Below are positions 32,338-60,368 of a DNA stretch of 64,000 nucleotides, one piece after another (position 1 is the first letter of the stretch; each line of letters starts with the position of its first letter). This DNA comes from Williamsia herbipolensis. GTDB lineage: Bacteria > Actinomycetota > Actinomycetes > Mycobacteriales > Mycobacteriaceae. The notes beneath the pieces were generated by a model that made no database searches, had not been told where the DNA came from, and saw nothing but the letters and a program-made list of their open reading frames with translations. Location: contig NZ_JXYP01000029.1 in the NCBI RefSeq assembly GCF_000964005.1, forward strand, positions 1 through 64,000, given 5' to 3'. Made by a program: the position numbers and the translations under genes.

Positions 32338-32384
32338 CGGTCATGCCCGCGGCGAGGGGTCGGAGGAGTCGATACGCTCGGCCC

Positions 32385-32927
32385 ATGAGGCGACGGTGGC
32401 GCAGGATCGTGCTGTGCCTGATCGTTCTGATGGTGGTGATCGGCGGTGCGGGTCTGCCCGTCTACGTCTTCCCGCAGGACGCCCAGAGCCCCCGCAAGGT
32501 CGACGTCATCATGGTCCTGGGCGGTCGGCAGGACGGGCGCGAGGACTACGGTATCTCGCTGGCCGAGCGTGGCTTGGCCTCGACCGTCCTCGTGTCCAAC
32601 CCGTACGACGAGCCCGATGACTACATGGACGCGATCTGCGATGCGCCGCATCGGGTTCGGGTGATCTGCTTCCGTCCGTCGCCCAAGACCACGCGGGGTG
32701 AGGCACGGTTCCTGCGCGATCAGGCGAAAGCCAACGGGTGGCGTTCGGCGATGGTCATCACCTTCACGCCACACGTCACGAGATCGGACTACATCATCTC
32801 GCGCTGCTTCACCGGCGACCTGGTGATGGTCGACTACCAACCGCACATCCCGCTGTTCTACTGGGCGTACATGTACCTCTACCAGACCGGCGGTTTCATC
32901 CGCGCCGTCGCCCAGGACGGCTGCTGA
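32385..32927 (+). CDS. YdcF/SanA/ElyC-like DUF218 membrane-anchored protein
   Basis: A 180-residue protein with a basic N-terminus and one signal-anchor helix (RIVLCLIVLMVVIGGAGLPVYVFP, about 7-30) followed by a DUF218 domain: KVDVIMVLGGRQDGREDYGISLAERGLA, RPSPKTTRGEARFLRDQAKANGW and a late THVTRSDYIISRCF-like segment (TPHVTRSDYI). ElyC and SanA relatives affect envelope polysaccharide and peptidoglycan precursor use in other bacteria. It is on the plus strand, convergent with the DUF4012 gene (20 bases apart), inside a minus-strand envelope locus. Confidence 0.75.
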   Translation: MRRRWRRIVLCLIVLMVVIGGAGLPVYVFPQDAQSPRKVDVIMVLGGRQDGREDYGISLAERGLASTVLVSNPYDEPDDYMDAICDAPHRVRVICFRPSPKTTRGEARFLRDQAKANGWRSAMVITFTPHVTRSDYIISRCFTGDLVMVDYQPHIPLFYWAYMYLYQTGGFIRAVAQDGC

Positions 32928-32947: not shown

Positions 32948-34732
32948 TCAACGGCACTGGGGCACGTTCACGGTCACGGCCGGTTGATCGACGAGCGGTT
33001 GCACCGGGACCACGGCGGCTCCGCGGGCCGAGGTCGGCTCCAGGAAGGTGTACTTCACCACGGCGGTGGCACCGGGCTTGATCCGCAGCTGCGTCATCAC
33101 GTGCAGATGCCCCAGCTCGGTGCCCGTGCCGTACAGCGGGGCCTCGCCGTCGACCGTGATCGTCTGCAGCACCGCACCATTGGTGAGGTTGGCGGTGAGG
33201 TTCGCGTAGTTCGTGCCCGGCTTGATCCGCTTGTCGGGGTTGCCGAGTCCGCCGATCACGTACGCCGGGAGCGAGAGATCGGTCGCGGTGTTGGTGAGCG
33301 ACACCGTCAGCGTGCTCTGGCGCATGTCGCCGGTGCACGCTCCCGATTCGTAGCGCACCTCCCGGCGCAGGTAGTAGTCGATCTTGTTGCCGGCAAGGTT
33401 GCCGACGGTCACCTCGGCGTACGGGGCGTCGGTCTGCTGCACCTCGTGGGCGAGGCCAGATTTCACGAGGAGTGCCTGCTCGTCGGCGCGGGTGCTGTAC
33501 ACCATGAGTCGGCGCTCGTGGACCGCGCGACCCAGCGCCTCCAGCACGCCGCCGGTGTTGCCGCGGGCGGTCGTCAGGGTGGTGATCGCCCTACTGGCGA
33601 TCTCCTGCAGGTAGGCCTTGCGGGCGGGGTTGTCGCCGCCGAAGCGCTTGTACGAACTCGACAGCGTGACGTCGACGACGTTGTCGCCGGTGATCTGTTC
33701 GCCGTCGGCCAGCGTGATCGGTCCGGTCGCCTTCAGCAGGTAGCTCAACGCGATGGGGTCGGTGGCCAGGGCCCCGTCGAGCCGCGCCCCGGTCTGCTGG
33801 CGCCACATCGACATCCAGATCTGCGCCGCGTACGGGAAGTGCGGGCTCACGTTGCTGTTCCGATCGTCGACATACGGTCGGTTGATCGCGTAGTTGCTGT
33901 CGAACTCGGCGCCGAGGTCGATCGGTCGCGACGGCGCTTTCAACGTCGAGTTGGGACCGAGATTGTCGACGTTCACCCGGCCATCACGCGCGCTGATGAC
34001 AGCGAAAGCGCCCAGAAGCCCACCGGTGGAACGGGATTCGGCGGGCGTCTGGAAGGCGAAGAAGTAGCGGCGGACGCCGTCGTTGCCCAGCATCGGCGGC
34101 AGCAGTTTCGCGGCGGTGTCGGTGCCGCGGATGAACCGGCTCGTCTTGGTAGTCTGGCCGACGAGCTGGTCACGTGCGTCGGAGACGGTGGAGAACCACG
34201 AGCCATCGATGGCCGCGGCGCGGGTGTCGATGCGTTCGGCGGCGTCGGCGATGGTGCCCAGCTTCGCCTCGTTCTGGGCGAGCAGCATGGTGTTGATGCC
34301 TTTGTCGCCCGCGCGCAGAGTCGTCGGGTCGAGCGTGGTCGCGAGATCGGCGATGGGGCTGAGCACCTCACGCGACAGGTCAGCCACCACGTCGGAGATC
34401 TGTGACACCGAATCGAGCGGATCGCCCAGCCACGGGATCGCCGCCGCGGCCGACCACACGATGTTGTGTGTCTTCGACCGCGCCGACGCCGACGACGACT
34501 GCGCCTGCGCGGCAGCGGCCTTCGCCTTCGTGATGTCGCCGTCGAGCACCGCGGCGCGGGCCGCGGTCGCCTGCGTGCGCGCGGTCTCGAGGTCGCCCTT
34601 GGCCTTGTAGGCGAGGTAGCCGAGGTAGAGACCCACGACCACGAGCAGCGCGATGACCACCGCGATGACCCACAGGATCCGGCGGCGCCGTCGCCGCGGG
34701 CGAGCGGGTGCGTCGGCAGCTGGTGCGGTCAT
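32948..34732 (-). CDS. DUF4012 membrane-anchored protein coupled to the NRPS
   Basis: A 594-residue protein with an Arg-rich cytoplasmic start, one membrane helix (ILWVIAVVIALLVVVGLYLGYLAY, about 19-42), a coiled Ala-rich helix (about 45-90) and a large outer domain of the DUF4012 type: FFAFQTPAESRSTGGLLGAFAVISARDGRV and PHFPYAAQIWMSMWRQQTGARLDGALATDPIALSYLLKATGPI. DUF4012 proteins are frequent in actinobacterial exopolysaccharide loci but their job is unknown; the outer domain recalls LytR-type partners and could help place polymer on the wall. The ATG at 34732 overlaps the NRPS stop by four bases and has AGGGGA five bases upstream, so translation is coupled. Confidence 0.8.
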   Translation of the reverse strand: MTAPAADAPARPRRRRRRILWVIAVVIALLVVVGLYLGYLAYKAKGDLETARTQATAARAAVLDGDITKAKAAAAQAQSSSASARSKTHNIVWSAAAAIPWLGDPLDSVSQISDVVADLSREVLSPIADLATTLDPTTLRAGDKGINTMLLAQNEAKLGTIADAAERIDTRAAAIDGSWFSTVSDARDQLVGQTTKTSRFIRGTDTAAKLLPPMLGNDGVRRYFFAFQTPAESRSTGGLLGAFAVISARDGRVNVDNLGPNSTLKAPSRPIDLGAEFDSNYAINRPYVDDRNSNVSPHFPYAAQIWMSMWRQQTGARLDGALATDPIALSYLLKATGPITLADGEQITGDNVVDVTLSSSYKRFGGDNPARKAYLQEIASRAITTLTTARGNTGGVLEALGRAVHERRLMVYSTRADEQALLVKSGLAHEVQQTDAPYAEVTVGNLAGNKIDYYLRREVRYESGACTGDMRQSTLTVSLTNTATDLSLPAYVIGGLGNPDKRIKPGTNYANLTANLTNGAVLQTITVDGEAPLYGTGTELGHLHVMTQLRIKPGATAVVKYTFLEPTSARGAAVVPVQPLVDQPAVTVNVPQCR

Positions 34733-37700
34733 CGGTGTCCCCTGTTCGCGGTCGGTTCGTCGGTCGGTCCGCCCGGGCGATCTGCGGCGGCGGCGATCTC
34801 GGACATGGCCATCGAGAGCATCCCACCGATGGCGCGCATCGTCGCGGGCTTGCCCATATCGGCGTGTACGGCGTCGACCCGCTCGACGGTGACCCGGCCC
34901 GGACCGGTGCGCCATCGGTCGATCGCCGCGTCGGTCGTGTTCGACGCCGCGACCATCACGAGGTCGGCGATCGGTGCGGGCTGCGGAGCGAATGCTGCCG
35001 CCGAGGCGGCGATCTCCTCGACACGGCGGGTGTACTCGGCGAACCGTCTTGCGTCGGCGGCGCGCAACGCCTCGGCGGTGTCGGGATCGATGGTCAGTGC
35101 CTCCGCACCGGCCTCGGCCACGTCGACACCGACGCGCGCGTCGAGCAACACCACGATGTCGACGGACTCGCCGGCCGCGGTGGCCAGATGGGCCATCTCG
35201 TGCGCGATCTGCCCTCCCACCGACCAGCCGCCGAATCGGTACGGTCCGTGTGGTTGTCGTGACCGAACGGCATCGAGGTGCGCCGCGGCGAGCGCCGACA
35301 CCGTCCCGGGTGAAGTGGGCGTCGTGTCGAGCAGGTCGGGCAGTTGCAGTCCGAACACCGGCGCGGTCCCGGTGAGCGCCTCGGCGAGCGGTCGGTACAT
35401 CGACGCCACCCCGCTCGCCGGGTGCACCATCCACAGCGGCGTTTCTGCCCGCTCGACGGCGTTACCTGCACGATCGACGGCGTTATCTGCACGATCGACG
35501 GCGTTTTCTGCACGGTCGACGGGGGTGAGGTCGATGACGTGGGTCAGCAGGGCGGCGATCTCCTCCGGGATCGTGGTGCCCGCCGTGTCACCGGCGTCGA
35601 TCACCGCGGCCAGCGACCCCGCCGTCGGGTGGGTGAGCACCACCGCGAGTCCGATGTCGACGCCGGCCTCCTCCCGCAGGGCCGTGACCAGCGGGATCAG
35701 CTGCAGCGAGGTACCGCCGACGGCGAAGAAGTCGTCGTGTATCCCGATCGACGTCTGCCCGGTCGCGGCACGGAACGCGCCGAGAACGGTCTCCTCGATC
35801 CGGGTCAGCGCGGCGTCTCCTGCCCCGTCCCAGGTGGGGGTGGGCAGGGCGGCGATGTCGAGCTTGCCGACCGGCGTCACCGGCAGTTCGTCGACCAGGA
35901 TCACCTGCGCCGGCACAAGGTGCGCGGGCAGACGGTCGGCCATCGCGGCGCGGATGTCGGCGCCCGGCCGGTCGCTGACGGCATAGGTGATCAGGGTGTC
36001 GCCGGCCGGCCCGGCTACCACCGCCGTCGCCGCGTGCACCGCACCGACCGCCCGCGCAGCGGCGTCGACCTCGCCGGGCTCCACGCGCACACCGCGAATC
36101 TGGACCTGACGGTCGCCGCGACCCACGAAGGTGAGTCCCGATGGCGTTCGTCGCACCAGGTCACCGGTGCGGTACATGCGCTCGCCGTCGTCGGCGGCGA
36201 CGAAACGACTCGCCGTCAGCGCGGCCTCGCCGTAGCCCTGCGCGAGAACCGGGCCGAAGAGGTACAGCTCGCCCACACATCCGTCGGGAACGGGCCGCAT
36301 CCGACGGTCGAGAACGGCGACCCCCACGCTGTCGGCCTGCCGACCCAGCATCGGTCCCACCGCGGTGCCGGCGTCGAACCACGCCCAGCACACCATGATC
36401 GTCGCCTCGGTGGGCCCGTAGACCGTGGCGACATCACGGCCGGTCGCCCAGGGCTGCAACACTTCCGGTGCGACCGCCTCACCGCCCACCTCGACCAGAC
36501 GCAGGGCGGGCAGCGCGGAGGGGTCCAACGTCGCGAGCACCGTCGGCGACGTGAACAGGGTCGTCACGCCGAGGCGGGCGAGCTCGGCCGTTCCCTCGCC
36601 ACCACCCACACGGTCGGGTGCGATGACCGCCAACCGTGCGCCCGCCCCGGCTGCGCGCACGAGCTCCATGATCGAGGCGTCGAAGCTCGGCGAGGAGTGA
36701 TGGGCGACGCGGTCGGCGGCCATCAGCCGCGAGGCGACCGCGTCGGCGAACAACGACACCCCGCGGTGGGTGACGGTGACGGCATTCGGTGTCCCGGTGC
36801 TCCCCGAGGTGAAGATGATGTAGGCGGGCGCGTCGATCAGCATCGTCGCCCACCCGATGTCGGGACTGTCCTCGGCGCTCGGATCCCCCACCCCGATCAC
36901 CGTGACCCCGGGCGCACTCTCCGCGCCGATCGCCACGGGCACGCCGGTCATCGCCAACATGCGTGCGACCCGATCGGCCGGGTAGCCCGGATCGACGGGA
37001 ACGAGCACCGCCCCGACGCGCACGATCGCCCACGTCGCGATCACCGACTCCACCGATCTCGGCAGCATCATGGCGACCCTGTCGCCCGGGCGGACTCCGG
37101 TGTCAACGAGACGCGTCGCGACCTGCGCCGATCGCCGATCCAGCTCGGCGTAGGTGAGTACCTGAGTCCCGTCGTCGATCGCGACGTCGTCGGCGAACAC
37201 CCCGGCTGCGCGGGAGAACACCTCGCCGAGCGTCATCATCGACCGGCTTGCCAGCACCGACCGCTCCACCGCGTCCCGTGCCGCCTCGGCCGGGTCGCGC
37301 AGGTCGAGTGCGCCCAGCGGTGTGTCGCCGTCGAGAGTGACCAGCGCCGTCACCGCGCGGATCCACCGTTCTCCCAGCCCGCGCGGGGTGTGGGCGTCGA
37401 ACAGATCGGTCGAGTAGGTCACCGTCGCGGCACCGTCGGGCGAGACGGTGAACTGCAGATCGAATTCCGATGGCGCACTGAGCTGATGCTCTGCGGATTC
37501 TGCGCCGGTCCACGGCGCGGGTGGCAGGGTGTCGGCCGCCCACGACAGCAGTACCTGCACGAGCGGATGGCGTCCGGCCTCGCGCGCCGGGCGGATCGCG
37601 GCGATCACGTCGTCGAGGCCCACGAGCCTGGCCCCGATCGCCGCGATGTCGACGTCACGGACCGTCGCCAGCAGCGCGTCGATGGTCATCGGATCGTCGC

Positions 37701-40700
37701 CGCGCGCACCCAGGTGCGTGCGCAGCACCGCGGTCGAGACGAACATGCCTGCGACGGAATCGATCTCCGGGAGCGACCGCACCGACACCGGCGTTCCCAC
37801 GGCGACGTCGTCGGTGTCGGCGGCACCGGCGAGGACCAGCACCAGCGCCGCATGCCACACATGGAACGGTGTCACCGCGGCCGCACGGGCCCGGGCACCG
37901 ATGGCGGCGACCACGACCGGGGGCGGCGCCACCGGCACCGCGCCGGTGGCCAGGGATCGCGTCGCGGTGCGCGCGCGGTCGGTCGGGATGTCGAGGATGC
38001 CGGAGTATCCCTCGACCGCGGCGACGACGCGGGCGCGTTCGGTCGCCCACTGCGCGGCGGGCACGGCGTTCTCGGCCAGCGCCCACTGCGGGTAGGTCAC
38101 GTCGAGCGGCGCCAACCAGTCCCCGGCGAGCGCGGCGGTGAGGTCGGCGGCGATCAGCGGGACCGACTGGCCGTCGAGCGAGATGTGGTGGACCAGCAGC
38201 AGGAGGAACCGTCCGTCGCGCCCCCGCACCGACACCGCGCGCACCGGGGGCTCGGTGGTGATGTCGACGGGCGCGGCGAGATGGCCCCGGAGCGCCGCAG
38301 GCGGGTCGGCCAGGGCGTCGGCCCACGATCGGTCACCGAGGTCCACCGCCAACACCGAAGGCCGACATGACGGCAGCACGTGCTGATACGGCTGGCCGGC
38401 GTCGGCGGGATAGACGGTGCGCAGCGGAGCGTGGCGATCGACCACGGCGCGCACCGCTGCGGCCACGGCGGTTTCCGACACGTCGCCTTCGAGCGGCACC
38501 ACCACCGGCACGGCGTACATCGCGGTCGCCGATCGATCCCGGGAGAGCCGGTCGGCGAACCAGATTCGACGCTGCGCGGTGGTCAGAGGGATCCGCGCCG
38601 ACCGCGTACCCGCGGGCCCCTCGGCCATCACGCGGGCCAGCGCGTCGGTCATCGGATCTGCGGTCGATGCGGTGACAGCGCCGAGACTCGTCGCGAGTCC
38701 CGCGGCGGTGGGGTGGGCGAACACCTCGGCCACCGGTACCCGGCGGCCGGTACGGCGCGCGAGTGCGGCGACGACCTGGGTGGTGGCCAACGACGTTCCG
38801 CCGAGGCCGAAGAAGTCGTCGTCGGCGCCGATGTGGTCGACCGCGATGTCGAGGACCTCGGCGAAGACGGTGCGCACCGCGTCGACGTCGACGTCGAGAT
38901 CGGCGACCGCGTTCGCCGCGGTCTCTGTGGTCTCTGCGGTGGTCTCGGGTGCGGGCGTCTCGGCCCGGAGGCCGTCGTCGATCAGCGGGAACGGCTCGTG
39001 CGGGGCGCCTGTCGCCGCGGTCAGCAGAATCAGGAGCTGATCGGCCATGGCCTGTGCGGTGGCCCCGGGTATCGCCGGTGCGTGCAGGACGATCAGTTCG
39101 AGCGCGCCGCCGGGGGCCGGGGCGATGACGACCTCGAGGTCGAACTTCGCGGACACCAGGTGATCGATGTCGCCGATCGGCTCGATTCGGCTGTCGCCCA
39201 GCGATATCCCACCCGAGGGATCGTCGGGGTCGCCGAGCGCCGGATCGAGCACGGCGCGCGCCTCCTGCGTCACGACCAGCACCGACACCAGCGGGTCGTG
39301 GCGGCCGCGGTGGTCGGGGCGCACCGCGCGGGCCACCGCGTCGTAGGGAACGCCGTCGTGCGCCATCGCGGCGAGGTCGGTGTCACGGACGGTGCGCAAC
39401 GAATCGTGCACCGTCGCTGCAGGGTCGAGCGCAGTCCGGAGCACCACCGTGTTGACGAACATGCCGACGATCGGTTCGAACGCCGGATCGGGGCGGCCCA
39501 GCACTGGTGCCCCGACCACGACGTCGGTGCGGCCGGTCCACCGGGCCAGCACCGTGGCGACGACAGCGTGCACGGCGTGGAAGACGGTCGCGCCGGCGTC
39601 ATGGGCGATCGCGGTGACCGACGCCGCGAGGTCGGCCGGCAGCACCGCGGTCACCCGCCCTCCGATGGAGCCCGAGCCGTGGCCGGGCAGACGCGGCGGT
39701 TCCCCGAGCCCGGCCAATTCCTCACCCCAGAAGGCCATCTGGCGTGCGTACTCCGACTGTGGATCGCCCGCGTCGCCGAGACGCCCGAGCTGCCAGCGGG
39801 TCACGTCGATGTATGTCAGCTCCGGCACCGGCAGGTCGGTGTCGGAGGTGTACGCGGTCGCGAGGTCGGCGAGCAGCGTGCGCAACGACCACCCGTCGAC
39901 CGCCACGTGGTGCATCGCCACGGCCAACAACCATCGCGGACCGTCGGGGGTGACCACCTCGAACACCGCGGCCCGGAACGCCGTCGCGGCGGTGAGATCG
40001 ATCCGGGTGGTGACGAAGTCGCGGACCGCGTGCTCCGCGTCACCGGTGTCGACGCGGATCAGCGCCGGCACCGCGACGTCGGAGGACGGCAGCACCACCT
40101 GTCGGGGCCCGTCGGGGGTGTCGGGGTACACGGTGCGCAGGCTCTCGTGCCGCTGCGCGACCCGGCGCACCGCACGCCGGATCCGTTCGACGTCGACCGG
40201 TCCCGAGATCCACGCGATTACCGGCACCGTGTAGGCCGTCGACTCCGGATCGAGTCGGTTGAGGAACCACATGCGACGCTGCGGGTAGGCCAGCGGGACG
40301 CTCGCCGGCGTCGGCAGGTGCACCGGGCGCACCCCGCGTACGTCGGTGGCGGGCATCGCGTCGAGATCGGCCGCGAGGTCGGCGACGGTCCGCGCATCGA
40401 ACAGCTGTCGCACGGCGACGTCGCGGCCGGTGGACTCCCGAAGCCGCCCCACCACCCGCGTGGCGCTGAACGATGTCCCGCCGAGGGAGAAGAAGTCCGA
40501 TGCGGTGTCGATGGTCTCGGCGTCGACGCCGATCACCTGGGCCCATACCGCGACGATCGCGAGCTCGGTGGGTGTCTGCGCGGGTCGACCCGACGGCGTG
40601 GCCGGGACCGGCAGTGCGCGTCGATCGAGTTTGCCGTTCGCCGTGCGAGGCAGCTCGTCGACCACGGTGATCAGCGCGGGGACCATGCCACGCGGCAACA

Positions 40701-46700: not shown

Positions 46701-49700
46701 GGCCGGTTGCCGCGGCGAGCCCGACCGCGATGTGCATGTACGACAACGAATGTGCGCCCAGGTCGAGCAGCGACAGACCGGTGTCGAGGTCGCTCTCGGC
46801 CAGCCCCAGCACGCCGGCGACGACTGCTCGGACCGCCGGGAGGTATCCGTCGACGTCTCGGCCGGTGTCGACCGCCTGCCCGGACGTCGGCTGCGGGAGG
46901 GCAGCGATGTCGATCTTCCCCGACGGCGTCAGTGGCCACGCGTCGACGAGAACCACGCGCGTCGGCACCGCGTGCGCGGGCAGCGTCTCGGACACCGCGG
47001 CGCGCAGGGACGCGGGGGTGATGTCGTCGCCTGCCGCGATCACGTGGGCGACCAGCGTGCCGCCATCGACGCGATCGCGATCGGCCACGGACACGACGGC
47101 GTCGGTGACGCCGGGCACCGCGCGCAGGGCGGCGGCCACCTCGCCGGTCTCCACCCGGAACCCCCGCAGTTGCACCTGGTCGTCGGATCGTCCGAGGTAC
47201 TCGAGCTCGCCGTCGTGGGTGCGTCGGACCATGTCTCCGGTGCGGTACATCCGCACGCCGCCGGGCGCCGCCACGAATCGCTCCGCGGTCTGCGCGGCGG
47301 GCCCGAGGTAGCCGTCGGCGAGATGCGCACCGGCGATGTACAACTCGCCCCACACGCCGGTGGGGACCGGCGCCAGGGTGGTGTCGAGGACGCTGATCGC
47401 CATCCCCGGCAACGGGTCACCGATCAGCGAGCGACGTTCCGACGTCACCGCCACCGGTGTCGAGGTGACGTGCACTGCCCCTTCGGTGATCCCCCACATG
47501 TTGGTGAACGCAGTGGTGTTGCCGACGGTCGCGGCGAAGCGCCAGAAACGGTCGAAGTAGAGCGCCGAACCGCCGAACACCACCCGCCCGAGAGCGGTCG
47601 TGCCCTCGCCCACGCGGATCGCCTCGGCCGCCAGCGCCGCGAACGCCGCCGGCGTCTGCGACAGCACAGAGATCCGCCTGTCCTGCACGAAACGCCACAG
47701 AGCAGTCGGGTCGCGCACGGTGTCGACGTCGGCGAGCACCACGCTCGCCCCGACACGCCACGGCGCGAGGATCTCGAACACCGAGAAATCGAAGGCGAGC
47801 GAGTGCACGCAGCTGAACACATCGTCGCGCGTGTAGCTCCCGGCCACGCCGTCGAGCATCGCGACCACCGCGCCGTGACTCACCGACACCCCTTTGGGTC
47901 GGCCGGTCGATCCCGAGGTGAAAATGACGTACGCCTCCGCGCCGGCGGGAACACGTACCGGAGTCCACGCGGAACCGTCGGCCTCCAGCTCGTCGAGCGA
48001 CACCGTCGTATGCGCACCGAGGTCGGGAGTGTCGCCGTCGACCACCACGAGGGCGGGCACAGCCGTGTCGAGAATCGCTGCGACCCGCGCCGCCGGAAGC
48101 GCGATGTCGATGGGGATGTAGGCCGCACCGGCCATCTGGGTTCCCAGCTGCGCGATCACTGCGCGGGCGCCGCGCGGGAGAGCGATAGCGACCCGATCGC
48201 CGGCACGCACACCGCGGGAAGCCAGGTCTGCACCGATCGCGCGCGCCTGCGTCATCAGTTCGTCGTAGCTGTAGCGCGTGTCGCCGTCGATCAGCGCCGG
48301 CGCAGTGCGGAACGCGTCGGCGGTGGCCGCCACCACGTCGACGACGGTCCGCTCGTCCACGGAAGCAGGTATGACCTCGAAACCAGCGCCCGATCCCGGA
48401 ACGAGCTCGTGCAGAGGCGACTCCGGGTTCGCTGCCGCACGACCGAAGGCCCCGACCACGGCGTCGACCATGGCGGCGGCGGTCTCGTCGTCGATCAGCG
48501 CGGCGTCGTGGGTGAGCGCCACCCGTAGCCCGTCGGTGGTCCGATCGAGGTTCCACTGCAGCGGGACCCGCGCGTGACGTGCCGGCTCCTCGGACACCTC
48601 GATGTCGAGCCCGAATGTTTCGGCGGCACCGTGCGCGCGGTCGGTGGCGCGGTAGCTGATCAGCACATCCGACAGCGGGGCGATGGTCGGCGAACGCCGG
48701 GGTTCGCAGATGCGGGCGACATCGGCGACGGGGAGGTCACTGTGCAGCAGGGCGTTCCGGACCGTGGTCTCGGTTGCCTCGAGCACGGTGGAGAACGGGG
48801 CGCCGGGGTCGAGCCGCGTACGGATGGCGACGGGGTTGACGAACATCCCGGCGGCAGGTCGTGCGGGCAACAGGTCGCGGCCGGAGTGCACGGTGGCCAG
48901 CGTGAGGTCGAGGCTCCCGGTGAAGCGGGCGATCACCGCGGCGACGATCGTGTGCGCGACGGCGTAGGTGTCCCCCGCGAGGTCGGTGGTCGCCACCGTC
49001 GCCGAGACCTCGCGGGCGCCCGTCGCGCGGCTCGCCGAGGGCGACGGCAGCCGCGGCCGCGGCGGGAGGTCACGCAGCTCATCACGCCAGAACTGGAGTT
49101 GCGCAGCGTATGTCGACCCCGGGTCGGATGGGCTGCCCAACGCAGCGGCGATCATCGCCGTGGCGTCGGCGTACTGGATCGGGTTCTCGGTCCAGTCCGG
49201 TGCCGCGCCGCGGAGTCGCGCTGCGCATGCGGTGGCGAGGTCGGTGGCGAGCACGTCGATCGACGCATCGTCGATCAGTGCGTGATGGACCGCGATCGCG
49301 AAGACGAGTGCGTCCGCGTGCTCCCGCACCGAGATCTGTGCCGGCACAGACGTGGTCGGGTCGGTCACCGCACGCGGGTCGGGCAGGACCATCTCCACCA
49401 GGATTCCCGCGATCACGTCGTCGGTGGGGAGCACGTCCTGCCAGAGCTCACCGGACACCCCGACCCGCACCACGGTGCGCAGGATCTCGTGGCGCTCCAC
49501 CACATCGGCGATGGCCGCGCGCACCGCACCCGCGTTGCCGGCGGCGCCGCGCAGCGTGACCGATCCGACCAGCACCTCGGCCGTCGAGGTGGGGTCGAGC
49601 CGCGCGGAGACGACCATCGCCGTCTGCTGGGCGGAGGCAGGCGGATGGTCGGGCCGCTCGGGCACATCGCTCGCCGCCAACGCCGAATCGATGCGGGCAG

Positions 49701-52626
49701 CCAACTCCCGCAACGACACCGACGTCAGCACGTCGCGCACGGTCACCGACACACCCGTGCGCTGCACCAGCGCGGCCGCGACCTCCACCGCGTTCAGCGA
49801 TGTCGCCCCGAGGTCGACGATGTCGGCGGCCACCGACGGCGCGTCGACCCCGAGCACGTCGCTGACCACGGAGGCCACCACGAGTTCCGCCGGTGTACTG
49901 GGCGCGACGTACGGCACGTCGGGGTCGAGCCGCGGAAGGGCGGCGACGGCGTCGCGATCGATCTTGCCGGTCGGGGTGAGCGGGAGGTGATCAACGATGG
50001 AGATCCGTGACGGCCACATCGCCGGTGGCAAGCGTTCGGCGAACAGGCGGCGTAGCGCGGGTCGCACGGTGACGGGATCGGAGGTGACCACCGCGAGCTC
50101 GAGCGTGCCGTCGTCGACGACGGCGACCGCTCCGTCGACCGCGTCGATCAACGACGCCACCGATTCGATCTCGGCGAGTTCGACACGGACGCCGCGGATC
50201 TGGACCTGGTCGTCGCCGCGACCGAGGTAGGTGAGGCCGGTCAGGTCGTGGTCCCATGCGACGAGGTCGCCCGTGCGGTACATCCGTTCGCCGGGCGCGG
50301 TCGGGTCGGCGACGAATCGCGCGGCGGTCGAGGGGGTGTCGGCGAGGTATCCCAGCGCCAGCGACGGGCCCGACACGTACAGCTCGCCGGGTGCACCCGG
50401 CGGCACGGGACGCAGCCGGGCGTCGAGGACGTGCACGCGGGTTCCGGTGATGGGCGCACCGATCGGCGGCGCGAGCGCGGTGTCGGCGGAGGGCTCGATG
50501 CACGCGGCGGTGGCCATGATGGTGGTCTCGGCCGGGCCGTACAGGTTGTGCAGGGTGCGCCCTGTGGCCCACCGAGCAGCCAGGCCCCCGGGGAGGGGCT
50601 CGCCGGCGGTCATCAGGGTGGCCAGCACACCGTGTTCGAGGTGGTCGGGATCGATCGTCGCGAGCACGCTCGGGGTGATGACGGCGTGGGTGATGCTGTG
50701 GTCGTTGAGGAATCGGGTGAGGTGCGCGCCGACAAGCGTGCCGGGTGGTGCGGGCACGATCGTTCCGCCGATGGCGTCGGCGAGGATGTGCTCGAAGATC
50801 GACGCGTCGAATGATGCGGCAGCGAGTTGCGCCACGCGCGCTGCGGTGTCGATCCTGAAGCGCGACCGCAGGTCGGCGCTCAGGGCCCCGATCCCCCGCC
50901 TCGGCACCACCACGCCTTTCGGCTCACCCGTGGTGCCGGAGGTGAACACGATGTAGGCCGGTGCGTCGAGCGGGGCCGCCGAGGGGCCGACTCCGGATTC
51001 GACCGAGGGTGTCATCTCGTCCGCGGTGACGATGGTCCGCGGGCGAACCCGGTCGAGGATCTGCTGTCGCCGGGTCGCGGGAAGGTCGGGATCGAGGATG
51101 AGCATCGTCGCCGGGCTCGACAGGCCCGCGCGGATGGCGCGGCTCAGTCCGGCGCCGCGTGGGATCTCGATGGCGATGGTCTCGCCGAGTCGCGCGACGC
51201 CACCCGGGGGTGGCGAGGTGTCGATGGCGGGCGCAGGCTCGGGCGCCCACGTCGGGCCCGATACTGATGCGAGAGCGGCGTGTTCGGTGTCGGTGAGCAG
51301 GGGGATGTCGCCGACGAGGGTGTCGGGGGCGTCGAGCAGTTCTCGGCAGACCGTGTCGAGAAGGCGGAGGAACCGCGCGTGGTGGTCGCGGGCCTCGGCG
51401 AGGGTGTAGCGGTGCGGGTTCGCGTCGAGGTCGATCTGGGTGGCGACCGAGCCGTCGGCTGCGACGCGCGGATAGACGGTGAACGCGAGATCGTCGACGG
51501 GGCCGGCGCTCACGATCTGCACGCCGCCGACGGCGTCACCGAAGCGGATGGTCGGCTCGGCGAGCATGAGGTTCAGGACCGGGCCGGTGACACCGGGGGT
51601 GGTGGGCACAGGGGTGCCGGCGGCGGCGAGGTCGCGCCGGATGTCCTCGTATCGGTAGCGCTGGTGACGGAGGGCGCCGAGCATCGCCGACTGTGTCGCG
51701 TGCAGTGTGTCGCGGGCCGTCGCGGTGCGGGTCAGGTGGGTGCGGATGGGGACCACGTTCGAGACCGGAAGACGGGTGTGTCGGAGCGCCGCGACGGCGC
51801 GGGCGGCGACCGGGAGCGCGAACTGGATGTCGTGGTGGCCCGTCATCCGGGCGAGGTAGATCGCGAGTGCGGTTCCGACGACCGCGGGCATGGTGGTGGT
51901 GTGTGCGGCTTGCACCTGCCGGAGGAGTTCGGAGGTACCGGGTGCGACGACCTCGGTGAGGTGATGAGTGCGCGTCGACATCGCGCCGGCTCGGCGGCTG
52001 AGGGTCGGCGGTGGTGGTGCGCCGGCGAGGGTGTCGAGCCAGTAGCTGCGATCACGCTCGCGCCGTGTGGATGTCAGGTAGTCGGCGTCGGCGCGCAGCG
52101 CGGGGCCGAAGTCCTCGGCAGGCGGATAGTCGGGGGTGCGGCCCTCGACGGCGTCGGTGTAGCACTGCCCCCACTCGGCGAGGAGTCGTAGTGCGGCAGC
52201 GCCGTCGGCGACGAGGTGGTGGCCGCGCATGTAGATGAGGTGGCGGTCGTCGGCGATCCGCAGGACCGCGAACAGGGCGGTGCGGTCGCGGGCGGGGTCG
52301 ATGGGGGTTGCCGCGTCGGTGGCCATCCAGTTCTGCGCGGCGGAAATGGGGTCGGGTTCGGCACGGAGATCGAGGTCGACCTTGGCGTCGGTCAGAGTGG
52401 GGTCGTACACCGATTCCACCGACTCGCCCGTGGTATCGAAGCGCAGATACAGCGTCGGTACCCGAGCGACGAAGGCACGGCCGACGTCATCGAGAAGCCC
52501 GGCGTCCAACGGGCCGACGAGATCGAGGTAGTAAGCGACGTTGACCGACCCGTCAGGCAACGCCCCCTGCAGATCCCACAGCGCCTGCTGGGCCCGGGTC
52601 AGCGGTTGCCGCTGCGCGCCAGGCAC
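34729..52626 (-). CDS. Six-module nonribosomal peptide synthetase, C-T fifth module, TE end
   Basis: A 5,965-residue NRPS. Order and key residues: C1 (GHHLVADG 135-142), A1 (TSGTTGEPKG 562), T1 (Ser943), C2 (HHALIDD 1114), A2 (TSGSTGRPKG 1570), T2 (Ser1960), C3 (HHAVADG 2160), A3 (2630), T3 (Ser3013), C4 (HHIAADG 3202), A4 (3673), T4 (Ser4052), C5 (HHVAVDG 4239), T5 (Ser4612), C6 (HHISLDG 4813), A6 (5273), T6 (Ser5640), TE (GWSVGG, Ser5802; His5921). C5 is followed directly by T5. No epimerase or methyltransferase domain is seen. Specificity residues read by hand: A1 DAFVMALIMK, A2 DFFSVGMVHK, A3 DFWSVGLVHK, A4 DALYTGLIVK, A6 DAMFEGVIMK; A2 and A3 are Thr-like, the others unassigned. C1 resembles the EntF-type first C domain, so the chain may start with an acyl group. 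The GTG start has GAGGAG overlapping the stop of the BY-kinase gene. Confidence 0.95.
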   Translation of the reverse strand: MPGAQRQPLTRAQQALWDLQGALPDGSVNVAYYLDLVGPLDAGLLDDVGRAFVARVPTLYLRFDTTGESVESVYDPTLTDAKVDLDLRAEPDPISAAQNWMATDAATPIDPARDRTALFAVLRIADDRHLIYMRGHHLVADGAAALRLLAEWGQCYTDAVEGRTPDYPPAEDFGPALRADADYLTSTRRERDRSYWLDTLAGAPPPPTLSRRAGAMSTRTHHLTEVVAPGTSELLRQVQAAHTTTMPAVVGTALAIYLARMTGHHDIQFALPVAARAVAALRHTRLPVSNVVPIRTHLTRTATARDTLHATQSAMLGALRHQRYRYEDIRRDLAAAGTPVPTTPGVTGPVLNLMLAEPTIRFGDAVGGVQIVSAGPVDDLAFTVYPRVAADGSVATQIDLDANPHRYTLAEARDHHARFLRLLDTVCRELLDAPDTLVGDIPLLTDTEHAALASVSGPTWAPEPAPAIDTSPPPGGVARLGETIAIEIPRGAGLSRAIRAGLSSPATMLILDPDLPATRRQQILDRVRPRTIVTADEMTPSVESGVGPSAAPLDAPAYIVFTSGTTGEPKGVVVPRRGIGALSADLRSRFRIDTAARVAQLAAASFDASIFEHILADAIGGTIVPAPPGTLVGAHLTRFLNDHSITHAVITPSVLATIDPDHLEHGVLATLMTAGEPLPGGLAARWATGRTLHNLYGPAETTIMATAACIEPSADTALAPPIGAPITGTRVHVLDARLRPVPPGAPGELYVSGPSLALGYLADTPSTAARFVADPTAPGERMYRTGDLVAWDHDLTGLTYLGRGDDQVQIRGVRVELAEIESVASLIDAVDGAVAVVDDGTLELAVVTSDPVTVRPALRRLFAERLPPAMWPSRISIVDHLPLTPTGKIDRDAVAALPRLDPDVPYVAPSTPAELVVASVVSDVLGVDAPSVAADIVDLGATSLNAVEVAAALVQRTGVSVTVRDVLTSVSLRELAARIDSALAASDVPERPDHPPASAQQTAMVVSARLDPTSTAEVLVGSVTLRGAAGNAGAVRAAIADVVERHEILRTVVRVGVSGELWQDVLPTDDVIAGILVEMVLPDPRAVTDPTTSVPAQISVREHADALVFAIAVHHALIDDASIDVLATDLATACAARLRGAAPDWTENPIQYADATAMIAAALGSPSDPGSTYAAQLQFWRDELRDLPPRPRLPSPSASRATGAREVSATVATTDLAGDTYAVAHTIVAAVIARFTGSLDLTLATVHSGRDLLPARPAAGMFVNPVAIRTRLDPGAPFSTVLEATETTVRNALLHSDLPVADVARICEPRRSPTIAPLSDVLISYRATDRAHGAAETFGLDIEVSEEPARHARVPLQWNLDRTTDGLRVALTHDAALIDDETAAAMVDAVVGAFGRAAANPESPLHELVPGSGAGFEVIPASVDERTVVDVVAATADAFRTAPALIDGDTRYSYDELMTQARAIGADLASRGVRAGDRVAIALPRGARAVIAQLGTQMAGAAYIPIDIALPAARVAAILDTAVPALVVVDGDTPDLGAHTTVSLDELEADGSAWTPVRVPAGAEAYVIFTSGSTGRPKGVSVSHGAVVAMLDGVAGSYTRDDVFSCVHSLAFDFSVFEILAPWRVGASVVLADVDTVRDPTALWRFVQDRRISVLSQTPAAFAALAAEAIRVGEGTTALGRVVFGGSALYFDRFWRFAATVGNTTAFTNMWGITEGAVHVTSTPVAVTSERRSLIGDPLPGMAISVLDTTLAPVPTGVWGELYIAGAHLADGYLGPAAQTAERFVAAPGGVRMYRTGDMVRRTHDGELEYLGRSDDQVQLRGFRVETGEVAAALRAVPGVTDAVVSVADRDRVDGGTLVAHVIAAGDDITPASLRAAVSETLPAHAVPTRVVLVDAWPLTPSGKIDIAALPQPTSGQAVDTGRDVDGYLPAVRAVVAGVLGLAESDLDTGLSLLDLGAHSLSYMHIAVGLAAATGRQPAVRDIVAAPTVAALSRVVARSPVALSPVAAIDGGGDDPVEYIPTAQQRGLWFLHRVSPASTVYHLPLRIDLNAAVGVDVLRFAAIDVIARHEILRTVLVDSDGTPRARVLSVADVTAFVDRAISGSQQVSDVDAAATLAARSPFDLGTAPGWRMHLFDARGQEGSGRRDADEPDRVLVIVAHHAVADGWSVQILGRDVLTAITARMQGVAPVWPAPAEPYSVFARRRAARGAVADAVIDHWRGVLDGAPTQMSLPEPAVGVDGSGPEPAAHLETTLSPTVRDRVVALADACGATPFHVVHVAVNRVIASIAGTDDVVIAVPTAGRDTAADLAGVGMYVRMVVLRSPVGTDVSVPDAVSASARALTGATGDLAIEYEDLVAAVAPTNGGDRQPFLDVIAAYAEDTLDAESLPTGDSEIVHALTPIRVPHARVPLEFTVTDRRDGGLELVLTVGTRTVDTTAAEQILDRVASMLETLAEGGPDRMVREALPPADRAALVGPPRAPLRDPGRAFTEHARRSPDSVAVIDAGRSVTYGELFAAVDQLTRSLSDGGVGAGTRVVVTAGRSAALLAVTVALHDLGATYVPIDPSYPAERAAAILDAVWPAVPITIEPATDYDGDTILGSRVLTYTAIGAGPAVVRSLPGDLPAYIVHTSGSTGTPKGVVVTRDNLASMLSATLPRIAPRPADVWTWSHSPAFDFSVWETWGPLTTGGAIVIVDTDTSRDPTVLARLLDDTGVTILSQTPTAFARIADSAALHPALRWVVFGGEAVAPATLAAWAARHPATQLVNLYGITETTVHLTQQILDVADQRSVIGQPLPGMSLRVLDSRLRPVPVGARGEVYVLGPQLAAGYLDQPGRTAERFVAAPDGARMYRTGDHVRRIDADRLVYLGRTDDQVQIRGFRVELGEVVSALRALPGVRDARVVVRPGPLAGDETLLGFVIGDDVDTDALRTRCAAVLPAQSVPSSILAVPGWPLTPTRKVDTAALLATADTASTVSRPLTPQEQVVAAVVAEVTGTDNARIGAGANFFALGGSSLSATRLAAALSDVAGAAITVRSVFDHPTVAMLAAVVDAAHDVGVTVPGPVAMPRPDRLPLTPQQEEIWLEWTLHPEDTGYHLVTAVPVDEGVATMLRDPDSRERIARQARALIERHDALRTCYPVDDLGPRQELVDLDSITIDLTPVVVDDAAAIVADLLAPFDLAAQPPWRVRVADTPYGMVIGAAGHHIAADGRSIAVLEREIATFIDGATPPMAPSLDFASYTQWYRSMLTARDADLQSFWRGVFAEPVQPIRLPGVAATVGERAPEPAVVAVALLPAETVTRLAAWVIERHTTVFITVHAALASVLARRGATRDIIVGTATSGRNAAALADTVGMFARTVPLRNDIDVDAPFTDVLAAVTATDLDAFAHADLPAAAITAIADPDRTTAGRALTTVVLSDLLTDRPGSAALSTDVDALAASGLLRTVFGLDFSVSRHGDDLRIALVYRPSTVDAAVAQGMVDDVATVIDAVLSRPDVAVGDVLVDTSARSTETVARSAGEGRGEPRVADGTVGGILAVAARRHADRIALIDGDERITYAEADAHARAIAGALRAAGVGRGDIVVSHAPRSRWSVLATWGISYAGAAFLAVNPTDPPTRRARVLADAAPAAILTAPGHPVTDIPLDAPVLALTDAMTHDPIVAPVAVGLDDLAYVVFTSGSTGTPKGVAVSHRGVGPMLATLLNGLSVDESSVMLHNYAPSFDAHILEVMMAVAAGAQMVICPPEVIGGDELRDIITRHGVNTVYSTPAVLGTMDPAALPHVTRMTVGGEAIPPAIAAAWSPRRQLANLYGPTETTIVVTASLRMDTGPVHIGTAVAGSSVAVLDARLRPVPDDTVGELYIRGESLARGYLGRPDLTAERFVADPNTPGGRMYRSGDLAHRRSDGTVVTHGRTDSQLAVRGLRVEPAEVDAALVAIPGVRDAVCDLYATPSGVDVLAAWVVLETADDPMDADDLRRATREVLPRGMVPALITVVDELPRTANGKLDRRALPVPATPSGRPAQTPTELAIVAVWAQVIGVDAETIDTASDFFSLGGTSFSATRVVGRLRESTGRDVAVRQLFDARTVADLAADLDAMPATDVRGVRPVHLPTPASVPLAYPQRRMWFLNRLDPESTAYTVPVIAWISGPVDVERIRRAVRRVAQRHESLRTVYPDTPDGPRQVVLPSSDVAVPALIRVDTGDAEHAVRDFVTTRIDLTAATAFRAAVFEVVTPDGPRWLLAVAMHHVAVDGWSLRTLLADLATAYTSDTDLPVPELTYIDVTRWQLGRLGDAGDPQSEYARQMAFWGEELAGLGEPPRLPGHGSGSIGGRVTAVLPADLAASVTAIAHDAGATVFHAVHAVVATVLARWTGRTDVVVGAPVLGRPDPAFEPIVGMFVNTVVLRTALDPAATVHDSLRTVRDTDLAAMAHDGVPYDAVARAVRPDHRGRHDPLVSVLVVTQEARAVLDPALGDPDDPSGGISLGDSRIEPIGDIDHLVSAKFDLEVVIAPAPGGALELIVLHAPAIPGATAQAMADQLLILLTAATGAPHEPFPLIDDGLRAETPAPETTAETTETAANAVADLDVDVDAVRTVFAEVLDIAVDHIGADDDFFGLGGTSLATTQVVAALARRTGRRVPVAEVFAHPTAAGLATSLGAVTASTADPMTDALARVMAEGPAGTRSARIPLTTAQRRIWFADRLSRDRSATAMYAVPVVVPLEGDVSETAVAAAVRAVVDRHAPLRTVYPADAGQPYQHVLPSCRPSVLAVDLGDRSWADALADPPAALRGHLAAPVDITTEPPVRAVSVRGRDGRFLLLLVHHISLDGQSVPLIAADLTAALAGDWLAPLDVTYPQWALAENAVPAAQWATERARVVAAVEGYSGILDIPTDRARTATRSLATGAVPVAPPPVVVAAIGARARAAAVTPFHVWHAALVLVLAGAADTDDVAVGTPVSVRSLPEIDSVAGMFVSTAVLRTHLGARGDDPMTIDALLATVRDVDIAAIGARLVGLDDVIAAIRPAREAGRHPLVQVLLSWAADTLPPAPWTGAESAEHQLSAPSEFDLQFTVSPDGAATVTYSTDLFDAHTPRGLGERWIRAVTALVTLDGDTPLGALDLRDPAEAARDAVERSVLASRSMMTLGEVFSRAAGVFADDVAIDDGTQVLTYAELDRRSAQVATRLVDTGVRPGDRVAMMLPRSVESVIATWAIVRVGAVLVPVDPGYPADRVARMLAMTGVPVAIGAESAPGVTVIGVGDPSAEDSPDIGWATMLIDAPAYIIFTSGSTGTPNAVTVTHRGVSLFADAVASRLMAADRVAHHSSPSFDASIMELVRAAGAGARLAVIAPDRVGGGEGTAELARLGVTTLFTSPTVLATLDPSALPALRLVEVGGEAVAPEVLQPWATGRDVATVYGPTEATIMVCWAWFDAGTAVGPMLGRQADSVGVAVLDRRMRPVPDGCVGELYLFGPVLAQGYGEAALTASRFVAADDGERMYRTGDLVRRTPSGLTFVGRGDRQVQIRGVRVEPGEVDAAARAVGAVHAATAVVAGPAGDTLITYAVSDRPGADIRAAMADRLPAHLVPAQVILVDELPVTPVGKLDIAALPTPTWDGAGDAALTRIEETVLGAFRAATGQTSIGIHDDFFAVGGTSLQLIPLVTALREEAGVDIGLAVVLTHPTAGSLAAVIDAGDTAGTTIPEEIAALLTHVIDLTPVDRAENAVDRADNAVDRAGNAVERAETPLWMVHPASGVASMYRPLAEALTGTAPVFGLQLPDLLDTTPTSPGTVSALAAAHLDAVRSRQPHGPYRFGGWSVGGQIAHEMAHLATAAGESVDIVVLLDARVGVDVAEAGAEALTIDPDTAEALRAADARRFAEYTRRVEEIAASAAAFAPQPAPIADLVMVAASNTTDAAIDRWRTGPGRVTVERVDAVHADMGKPATMRAIGGMLSMAMSEIAAAADRPGGPTDEPTANRGHR
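35437..35520 (-). repeat. Four 21-bp in-frame repeats in the NRPS T6-TE linker
   Basis: Four tandem 21-bp units encode AVDRAEN-type heptads (VDRAENA, VDRADNA, VDRAGNA, VERAETP) between the last carrier domain and the thioesterase. The DNA unit contains GTCGATCGTGCA, close to the GTCGATCGGGCAC unit at 15854-15895. The peptide would form a charged, probably helical linker. Confidence 0.8.
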
Positions 52627-52637
52627 ACTCGTTCTCC

Positions 52638-54116
52638 TCAGTGCTTGGGCTTGCGTTTCGGTTCGAGAACCTGCTCGATCGCCTTCGGCTCCCGGTTCCT
52701 GCCGAACAGCGACTTCTTCTGCGCCGGGTTCACGGCGTAGTAGCCGTATCGCCCCTTCGAAGTGGGCGCTTCGGTGAGGACGAAACCGATGACCGCCGTG
52801 CCGCTGTTGGTGAGCTGATCGTGGGCGTCGGACAGGTCACCGAACCTGGTGCTCCCCGAACGGGCGACAAGCAGGATGCCGTCCACCCATTGGGCGAGAA
52901 CGGCGGCATCGGTGACCGGCAGCACCGGCGCGGAATCGACGATCACGTAATCGAACGAGGTGGCGAGTTCCGAGAGCGTCGTGCCGGCTCGCTTCGAGGC
53001 AAGTAGTTCTGCCGGGTTAGGCGGGCGCGGGCCGGACGCGAGGACCCACAACCCGTCCACGGCACTGGGCTGGACGAGGTCGGAGAGATCGCCGTCGCCA
53101 CGAAGAGCGTTCGTGAGACCGATGTCGCCGAGAAGCCCGCTGCGGGTGTCGACCTGAGGACGGCGCAGATCCGCGTCGACCAGTACGACTCGGTTGCCGG
53201 CCTCCACCAGGGCTGCCGCGAGATTCATCGCCGTGGTGGTCTTGCCCTCCACAGCGATCGGGCTCGTGACGAGGATGATCTTCGGCGGACTGTCCACGTT
53301 GGCGAACGCGAGATTCGTGCGGATCTTGCGGAAGGCCTCGGCCGATGGCGTGGCCCCGCCCTTGAAATCGATCAACCCGCGCTTCTTCAACAGCTCATCG
53401 GTGGGAATCGAGCCCAGGACAGGGGTATCGCTCACGCCCGCGATATCCGACTCATCGCGGATCTTGTTGCTGAATCGCGCCCGCGCTAAAACCCCGAAGA
53501 CACCCAGCAGCAAACCGACCACGACGCCGACACACACGTTACGAGTGGTTTTCGGTGTGACGGGCGAATCGCTGGCATCGGCCGGCGTCACGAGTGTGAG
53601 CTTGGCCAACGGCTGGCCACCCCCACTGGGTGTCTCGAGACGGGACACGTAGCTCGTCATGGCGGTCGAAATCGCATTGGCCAGCTTTTCCGCTTCGGCC
53701 CGATCCTTGTTCACCGCCGAGATGTTGAGGAGAACTGTTTCCGTTGTCGATGTGGCAGACACATCAGCCTTGGCGTCCCCAACGCTGAGGTCGAGGTTCG
53801 CGGTCTGTAGCGCTTGACGCACGACCGCATCCGAGTTCACCAGCTTGGTATACGAGGTGACCCTCTGCTGCGACGCCAGAGAGCCTTGATAGGCGGTCTG
53901 GGAGTTGTCGTCCGTCCCCGACGTCACATACAGCGTGGCGGTCGCCTGATAGATCGGTGTCTGCAGAAGGCAATAACCCAACGCAAGGAGGCCGACGACG
54001 ACCGCGCATGCCACGATTGCGAGCCATCCACGACGCAGTGCGCCGAGAACGTCCCGTACGGACTCACCTTCGGCTGTCGATGATCGAGAGTCCGACAAGG
54101 CCACCGAATCAGTCAT
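52638..54116 (-). CDS. Wzz-BY-kinase polysaccharide copolymerase (Wzc-like)
   Basis: Controls chain length and export of Wzy-type polymers through tyrosine phosphorylation. The 492-residue protein has a Wzz domain between two helices (WLAIVACAVVVGLLALGYCLL and VCVGVVVGLLLGVFGVLAR), then the BY-kinase domain: SAEAFRKIRTNLAFANV, Walker A SPIAVEGKTTTAMNLA, Walker A' VVLVDADLRRPQVD and Walker B DYVIVDSAPVLPVTDA. The tail has a short tyrosine cluster GRYGYYAVNP and a basic end. The ATG at 54116 overlaps the stop of the glycosyltransferase upstream by eight bases; an earlier in-frame start exists but lies deeper in that gene. It is 11 bases before the NRPS start. The Wzb-like phosphatase is 24 kb away in the same locus. 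Confidence 0.93.
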   Translation of the reverse strand: MTDSVALSDSRSSTAEGESVRDVLGALRRGWLAIVACAVVVGLLALGYCLLQTPIYQATATLYVTSGTDDNSQTAYQGSLASQQRVTSYTKLVNSDAVVRQALQTANLDLSVGDAKADVSATSTTETVLLNISAVNKDRAEAEKLANAISTAMTSYVSRLETPSGGGQPLAKLTLVTPADASDSPVTPKTTRNVCVGVVVGLLLGVFGVLARARFSNKIRDESDIAGVSDTPVLGSIPTDELLKKRGLIDFKGGATPSAEAFRKIRTNLAFANVDSPPKIILVTSPIAVEGKTTTAMNLAAALVEAGNRVVLVDADLRRPQVDTRSGLLGDIGLTNALRGDGDLSDLVQPSAVDGLWVLASGPRPPNPAELLASKRAGTTLSELATSFDYVIVDSAPVLPVTDAAVLAQWVDGILLVARSGSTRFGDLSDAHDQLTNSGTAVIGFVLTEAPTSKGRYGYYAVNPAQKKSLFGRNREPKAIEQVLEPKRKPKH

Positions 54117-60367: not shown

Positions 60368-60368
60368 A

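Follow-up and report, generated by a model that had tools for sequence, protein, structure and literature searches.

A giant non-ribosomal peptide synthetase gene embedded in a surface-polysaccharide locus of Williamsia herbipolensis and its relatives

The stretch of DNA analyzed here, 64,000 nucleotides of the Williamsia herbipolensis genome (4.74 Mb) and termed the window throughout, is part of contig C50 (NZ_JXYP01000029.1). Its minus strand encodes, in this order, a glycosyltransferase with a DUF1972 domain, a Wzc-like bacterial tyrosine kinase (BY-kinase), a giant non-ribosomal peptide synthetase (NRPS) and a DUF4012 membrane protein. That the NRPS and the polysaccharide machinery constitute one functional unit is well supported, and the strongest sign of their working together is a linkage that persists when the genes are rearranged. 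We suggest, with a probability of about 0.4, that the locus directs the synthesis of an acyl-peptide made for, and perhaps covalently joined to, a Wzx/Wzy-type polysaccharide, in which case DUF4012 would serve as the joining enzyme.

Linkage across the family

In a search of 401 genomes of the GTDB family to which Williamsia belongs, 158 matched DUF4012. From the matches listed, 60 loci were chosen, mostly the best ones; these are related, and three genomes are represented twice. The stretches compared span ~9 kb on each side of DUF4012 and are shorter at contig ends. NRPS condensation (C) domains were detected at 50 of the 60 loci, in 48 cases within 1 kb of DUF4012 (47 of 57 loci with an NRPS when each genome was counted once), compared to 2 of 18 random regions, one from each of 18 sampled genomes, and none of 20 DUF4012 loci from outside the family. 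Fisher's test gave p values of ~3e-8 (versus random) and ~8e-12 (versus outside the family), with neither relatedness nor the choice of loci corrected for. The contrast with the random regions rules out a chance neighborhood.

The NRPS was present at all loci of groups g11 (8), g23 (9), g27 (5) and g10 (3), at 21 of 24 Gordonia loci (g9) and at 4 of 5 in g6. The order NRPS-DUF4012-DrrAB was observed at all eight g11 loci, while the Gordonia loci displayed either NRPS-phosphatase-DUF4012 (18 of 24) or Wzc-DUF4012-(DrrAB)-NRPS (4 of 24). One of these 18 loci, L057, has an NRPS by tblastn and no detected C domain, and it counts as a miss among the 60 yet is included here. In groups g23, g27, g6 and g10, DUF4012 and the NRPS were divergent at 21 of 22 loci.

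Where both flanks of the NRPS were read, a BY-kinase gene was part of the unit in 12 of 14 cases (3 of 4 in Williamsia, g1, and 9 of 10 elsewhere, plasmids included). The Wzc gene lies immediately upstream of the NRPS in W. muralis (G046), and immediately downstream on the same strand in four other genomes (G237, G134, G162 and G042). A single Gordonia locus (G329, contig C1, 1844624-1897264; L114-L117) contains two units, the first arranged as Wzc-NRPS-phosphatase-DUF4012-sugar transferase and the second as Wzc-DUF4012-NRPS, each with its own Wzc.

DUF4012 was also matched in 11 plasmid records, four of which were examined. In the Rhodococcus plasmids pDK1 and pYLL2, DUF4012 is accompanied by a divergent NRPS gene (25.0 and 16.1 kb, respectively), which has a tyrosine autokinase gene directly after it, and both loci also hold a sugar transferase, glycosyltransferases and nucleotide-sugar enzymes. 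In the R. qingshengii and Streptomyces plasmids, DUF4012 occurs in polysaccharide loci with no annotated NRPS in the stretch. The possibility, raised in the preliminary description of the window, that the gene order is unique to this strain is thus not borne out: the association recurs, in several orders, in Williamsia, Gordonia and Rhodococcus-type genomes, which also rules out a strain-specific insertion.

Conservation within Williamsia

DUF4012 was found in all eight genomes of the genus that were compared, in five of them (the window's included) as a close homologue of at least 62% identity and in three as a remote one (35-36%). W. deligens (G001) retains the entire order glycosyltransferase-Wzc-NRPS-DUF4012-DrrA-DrrB, and W. 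serinedens (G004) retains it from Wzc onwards. In both species, the 11 nucleotides from the Wzc stop to the GTG start of the NRPS, as well as the ATGA overlap of NRPS and DUF4012, are exact, and the gap sequence diverges beyond TGAGG. In G005 the contig stops inside the NRPS (L003).

At the corresponding site, genome G002 retains Wzc (74% identity), DUF218, the phosphatase and sugar transferase B; ~46 nucleotides separate the Wzc match from that of DUF218, and neither the NRPS nor a close DUF4012 nor DrrAB was matched there. This is an "empty site", in which genes are missing on both sides of the retained DUF218. In the stretches read from G003 and G007, single weak adenylation-type matches were detected and no NRPS. 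A record named Kitasatospora arboriphila NRRL B-24581 (L007) contains a Williamsia-type locus, with a 60% identical DUF4012 and the NRPS beside it; it is probably mislabelled or contaminated.

Gene junctions in the window

All four genes proposed in the preliminary description were confirmed on one strand in the order given above, and each of their junctions was reproduced. The glycosyltransferase and Wzc genes overlap by 8 nucleotides (ATGACTGA), and the Wzc start was placed at 54116 because of this overlap. The Wzc stop is separated from the GTG start of the NRPS by 11 nucleotides (TGA, GGAGAACGAGT, GTG), and the NRPS and DUF4012 genes overlap by 4 (ATGA). A separate promoter or terminator for the NRPS would have told against coupling; no promoter-like or same-strand terminator-like sites were found at 52400-56300 in a scan that constitutes a weak, sigma-70-only test.

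The neighbors described earlier as adjacent, namely DrrAB, a Wzb-like phosphatase and two sugar-phosphate transferases, are all present. DrrAB, however, lies outside the NRPS gene run, since a plus-strand DUF218 gene intervenes between DUF4012 and DrrA; a single run containing both is therefore ruled out.

Domain architecture and phylogeny of the NRPS

Pfam models, together with hidden Markov models of our own, revealed six condensation, five adenylation (A) and six carrier (T) domains and one thioesterase (TE), in the order C(starter-type)-A-T, C-A-T, C-A-T, C-A-T, C-T, C-A-T-TE. The HHxxxD motif is present in all six C domains, the serine motif in all six carriers and GWSVG in the thioesterase; C2 reads HHALIDD, with a DD end in place of the DG of HHxxxDG. 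The protein thus has the ordered modules, intact motifs and terminal thioesterase of a multimodular NRPS, with a fifth module lacking an A domain. An epimerization-like extra C domain was seen in none of the 13 linked NRPSs whose domain orders were compared. The thioesterase was detected by a one-sequence model in only 5 of these 13 (the window, G001, G004, G046 and Rhodococcus sp. YL-1).

By sequence resemblance, the best PDB matches of C1 were 7c1k (RzmA), ObiF1, CDA synthetase I and EntF, all of which we take to be structures of starter C domains. The internal C3 and C5 domains matched best to carrier-condensation (PCP-C) and internal domains, rather than to the starter set. The NRPS is therefore probably lipo-initiating, with a predicted N-terminal acylating C domain. 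The module without an A domain retains a canonical C domain and is penultimate in all eight Williamsia and Gordonia NRPSs studied (two of which, both from G329, share a genome), and is missing from all five Rhodococcus-type NRPSs compared.

The code D(F/V)(W/F)(N/S)(I/V/L)(G/A)(M/L)VH, presumably Thr-type, was found in all 13 linked NRPSs. In the window's NRPS, modules 2 and 3 are the candidate Thr modules. Among linked A domains, 18 of 71 carry the code, and among unlinked ones 5 of 60 (uncorrected p = 0.012); the comparison includes one misaligned domain on each side. The unlinked set was taken from near 30 high-scoring unlinked C domains and from two random regions, in overlapping stretches, so that some of its domains were counted twice. 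No nameable substrate was matched by the other A-domain codes.

In a tree of 111 C domains (32 from unlinked loci), the C4, C5 and C6 domains of Williamsia and Gordonia formed orthologous clades with support of 0.99-1.00, and the NRPS of these two genera therefore appears to be a single enzyme passed on by inheritance. NRPSs of the Rhodococcus type formed clades of their own (1.00 for the last C domain). The 13 linked starter domains clustered together with one unlinked domain (0.85). Elsewhere in the window's genome, an open NRPS frame of 11,405 amino acids was observed on contig C21 (~17600-43700), which also carries the only MbtH match of the genome; a C domain of this frame (in L215) clusters with the linked starter domains.

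Predicted fold and occurrence of DUF4012

The DUF4012 protein has one N-terminal hydrophobic segment, and the remainder is presumably outside the membrane. Its AF2 model (pLDDT 82) comprises a core with extra N-terminal helical and C-terminal beta domains. In a Foldseek search against the PDB, proteins of the LytR-CpsA-Psr (LCP) family occupied ranks 1-6, 10 and 15 among the 50 hits listed (3pe5, 2xxq, 3tep, 3tfl, 3tel, 2xxp, TagV 6uf3 and YvhJ 3nxh), with E values of 4.7e-3 to 9.5e-2, 212-242 aligned columns and a root-mean-square deviation (rmsd) of 7-9; ranks 1-6 had E values of 4.7e-3 to 1.2e-2 and a probability of 1.00. We take 3pe5 and 3nxh to be LCP proteins and 2xxq and 2xxp to be Cps2A. 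The other hits listed were mostly shorter, chiefly M1 aminopeptidases, which are taken to fit the predicted C-terminal beta part.

When a profile from 19 of 20 loci was used, hhalign paired tG.xLDG.A.DPIAL.YLL.ATGP, a motif of DUF4012, with ltG..iD.y.ev...GF..lv.a.GGV of LCP; the E values were 0.025-0.066, as compared to 0.44-0.6 for three unrelated controls. A PDB sequence search with the DUF4012 profile yielded unrelated proteins, the best at E 0.051. It is a fair prediction that DUF4012 works like an LCP enzyme. Residues that do not vary among 14 aligned sequences include R234, D319, D325 and R371.

Across the phylum, 109 of the 396 genomes sampled had DUF4012 (E up to 1e-15), and the window's genome has four ordinary LCP matches besides it. 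The g29 loci (L082, L088, L097, L101 and L106), in which DUF4012 stands beside Wzc with no NRPS C domain in the stretch, provide a natural comparison group for DUF4012 alone.

Proposed product and alternative explanations

The preliminary description proposed a joint product of a tight operon. The functional unit is well supported; a joint peptide-polysaccharide product is what we infer from it. The products of the locus would be a Wzx/Wzy-type surface polysaccharide and, along with it, a dedicated N-acylated peptide. The acylating C domain of the NRPS would start a short peptide bearing at least one Thr-type residue, the thioesterase would free the acyl-peptide, and its export would fall to DrrAB at those loci that have it. 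Polymer length and export would be governed by the BY-kinase and the phosphatase, and the membrane-anchored, LCP-like DUF4012 protein would move the undecaprenyl-linked polymer onto an acceptor. That acceptor might be the Thr hydroxyl of the acyl-peptide; the coat would thereby be held in the mycolate envelope. LCP enzymes join Wzy-dependent capsules to peptidoglycan in some Gram-positive bacteria, and LcpA of Actinomyces oris is given, in a "predicted role", as an LCP protein acting on an amino-acid acceptor (PMC7831098, available portions); a Thr residue is proposed here because of these two precedents. A peptide joined to the polysaccharide gains plausibility from three predicted features, namely the LCP-like fold of DUF4012, the starter character of the first C domain and a module of Thr type.

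In its broadest form, the proposal would imply that several genera of mycolic-acid bacteria make an undescribed class of glycoconjugate, in which an LCP-like DUF4012 ligase attaches a Wzx/Wzy polysaccharide to an NRPS acyl-peptide serving as a mycomembrane anchor; such a generalization is tentative and somewhat doubtful. For the retention of capsules on the mycolate outer layer in Williamsia, Gordonia and Rhodococcus, the conserved NRPS-kinase-DUF4012 unit offers a concrete, deletable candidate. The locus also provides a predicted function for DUF4012 and, if the proposal is true, a set of NRPS clusters without known product would shift from antibiotics to envelope biology.

A number of observations weigh against an acyl-peptide joined to the polysaccharide by DUF4012. 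The NRPS was absent from the 20 DUF4012 loci outside the family (8 of which have a Wzc-like gene) and from all six g29 loci (Wzc in 5). DUF4012 thus occurs without an NRPS in g29 and outside the family and also, according to the available portions of the report cited below, in Bifidobacterium longum, so that the peptide cannot serve DUF4012 as acceptor in general. Of the 60 short stretches, only 11 contained a Wzc-like gene, since most did not extend to the far side of the NRPS; the flank reading gives stronger evidence of kinase linkage, but has no bearing on a covalent joint. In G201, no Wzc match was detected in the 40 kb read around the NRPS. Within Williamsia, neither Wzc nor DrrAB was matched next to the NRPS-DUF4012 pair of G006 (there is a Wzc-like match of 30% at a distance of ~11 kb), and G002 carries its remote DUF4012 (35%) ~16 kb from the empty site. 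The Thr-type code was found in unlinked NRPSs as well (the 5 of 60 A domains above). The structural scores for LCP are weak, the best hit (E 4.7e-3) having a TM score of 0.44 by target and 0.23 by query at rmsd 7. When a distant homologue (31% identity; model pLDDT 78.5) was searched in the same way, 3pe5 ranked third and 3nxh fortieth, behind unrelated hits at ranks 1-2. The hhalign probability was 0.8-2%, and neither the window's DUF4012 protein nor either of two distant ones matched the Pfam LCP model (PF03816, LytR_cpsA_psr) at E up to 10 with HMMER filters on.

Chief among the alternatives is a free lipopeptide under control shared with the capsule. It would be exported by DrrAB and held non-covalently in or on the capsule, the kinase and phosphatase would control both products, and DUF4012 would attach the polysaccharide to peptidoglycan like an ordinary LCP enzyme. 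The starter-type C domain and DrrAB are in keeping with such a product, as is the thioesterase ending, which suits release of a free or cyclic peptide, and the DUF4012 proteins found elsewhere without an NRPS indicate that the acceptor need not be a peptide. We nevertheless regard this alternative as rather unlikely, since it gives no reason for pairing the NRPS with DUF4012 and a kinase/phosphatase instead of tailoring enzymes, and, in the stretches read, the divergent Rhodococcus-type NRPSs had no DrrAB match next to them.

It is improbable that the gene encodes an ordinary secondary-metabolite NRPS, for which the polysaccharide region is merely a tolerant chromosomal site. NRPS genes are common, with 21 C domains in the window's genome and 88 in G237, and C domains turned up in the random regions too, but their excess at DUF4012 loci, the orthology of C4-C6 despite changing gene order, the kinase in 12 of 14 units and the conserved 11- and 4-nucleotide junctions all stand in opposition. 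Quite improbable is a role of the peptide, or part of it, as a substituent of the repeat unit in amide or ester linkage (an amino-acyl sugar), for although amino-acid decorations occur on O-antigens and capsules, and the A-less C-T module conserved among the compared Williamsia and Gordonia NRPSs could take an unusual substrate in trans, an acylated peptide of five or six residues far exceeds the known sugar decorations in size, and no enzyme accepting a peptidyl substrate was identified (no search was aimed at one).

Relation to known systems

The glycopeptidolipid (GPL) loci of mycobacteria contain mps1/mps2, gtf and gap, and their products carry short sugars, with (allo)Thr as a sugar acceptor; we know of no BY-kinase, Wzb or DUF4012 in them. 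Common to both systems are an NRPS for an acyl-peptide and glycosyltransferases, which in GPL lead to a surface glycoconjugate. GPL, in contrast, has short sugars and no Wzy polymer. The Williamsia locus does not have the layout of a GPL locus as generally described, in that a single NRPS polypeptide, ending in a thioesterase, is located inside a Wzc/Wzb/initiating-transferase locus. The kinase and phosphatase resemble the BY-kinase/low-molecular-weight phosphatase pairs Wzc/Wzb and CpsCD in their Wzz domain, kinase motifs and CX5R phosphatase motif, and differ from them in that the kinase gene adjoins an NRPS gene.

The core of DUF4012 is predicted, with weak scores, to be folded like the LCP transferases (Cps2A, TagV and A. 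oris LcpA), which likewise occur in capsule loci and for which an amino-acid acceptor is described in one actinobacterial case (PMC7831098, available portions); unlike them, DUF4012 has no Pfam LCP match and bears extra N-terminal helical and C-terminal beta domains. The cps locus of B. longum 105-A likewise combines a priming sugar transferase, DUF4012, Wzz and glycosyltransferases in a single locus, and the available portions of the report mention no NRPS (PMC5412050), whereas in Williamsia a giant NRPS is coupled between the kinase and DUF4012. No report of an NRPS tied to a BY-kinase/DUF4012 locus was found in a literature search confined to titles and the beginnings of abstracts, outside of which most subscription papers fell. 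Six papers (PMC5550956, PMC7358434, PMC2947987, PMC8877126, PMC7413640 and PMC12298843) deal with NRPSs or polysaccharides and, in their available portions, draw no such link; a table in PMC12298843 lists NRPS clusters as exopolysaccharide-related through similarity to known clusters.

Polysaccharide genes and other features of the window

The features of the locus are collected in Table 1. The reading frames of DrrA, DrrB, the phosphatase and sugar transferase B were set by codon-position GC and Pfam.

Table 1. Genes of the NRPS-polysaccharide locus in the window.
Feature	Positions	Strand	Evidence and remarks
GT4-type glycosyltransferase with DUF1972	54109..55470	-	PF00534 (GT1 domain), PF09314; first listed start codon, true start may be further in
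Wzc-like BY-kinase, Wzz and kinase domain, 492 aa from ATG at 54116	52638..54116	-	PF02706, PF13614, TIGR01007, motifs
NRPS, 5,965 aa	34729..52626	-	Pfam, own hidden Markov models, motifs
DUF4012 membrane protein, 594 aa, candidate glycopolymer ligase	32948..34732	-	PF13196, 148 bits
DUF218 protein between DUF4012 and DrrA	32331..32927	+	PF02698
DrrA-like ABC ATPase	31351..32337	-	PF00005; TIGR01188, 296 bits, slightly below cut-off of 312
DrrB-like ABC-2 permease, 4-nt overlap with DrrA	30509..31354	-	PF01061
Polyprenyl glycosylphosphotransferase B (initiating enzyme)	28883..30412	-	PF02397; TIGR03025, 403 bits, above cut-off
Wzb-like low-molecular-weight tyrosine phosphatase	28336..28854	-	PF01451, CTGNICRS motif
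Polyprenyl glycosylphosphotransferase A	24740..26314	-	PF02397; TIGR03025, 421 bits, above cut-off
AT-rich glycan-unit island: GT2 glycosyltransferases, Wzy and Wzx candidates, acetyltransferase, two more open reading frames	56749..64000	-	Composition, Pfam, hydrophobic segments

The Wzc-like protein displays the Walker A, A' and B motifs of BY-kinases and scores 166 bits with TIGR01007 (cut-off 108). With its Wzz domain and a tyrosine-containing tail, it has the features of the Wzc/CpsD type, with only 3 tyrosines among the last 60 residues. The Wzx/Wzy-type unit of the preliminary description was upheld in part: two initiating polyprenyl glycosylphosphotransferases exceed the TIGR03025 cut-off, but neither the Wzx candidate (59078-60490) nor the Wzy candidate (57666-59054) matched any Pfam or NCBIfam model. 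Their position and their ~8-10 distinct hydrophobic segments each (the raw counts of 13 and 14 include overlapping segments) suggest these roles.

Three of the five open reading frames of the island that were run against Pfam matched, out of seven in all; those at 61990-63096 and 63101-64000 were called putative glycosyltransferases by eye, without a Pfam run. The GC content drops from ~70% to 52-55% in the island beside the NRPS (window positions 56000-64000), in line with a serotype-like region of recent acquisition.

Just beyond the right end of the window, contig C50 carries another polysaccharide cluster (64984-79535; L112:984-15535), with a Wzz/kinase-like gene of its own (66082-67509), a GT2 glycosyltransferase, a weak Wzy-like match, a WecG/TagA-type glycosyltransferase, GT4 glycosyltransferases, an acyltransferase and epimerases. 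Four tRNA genes (Trp, Met, Thr and Tyr) are located on the minus strand at window positions 6308-8533.

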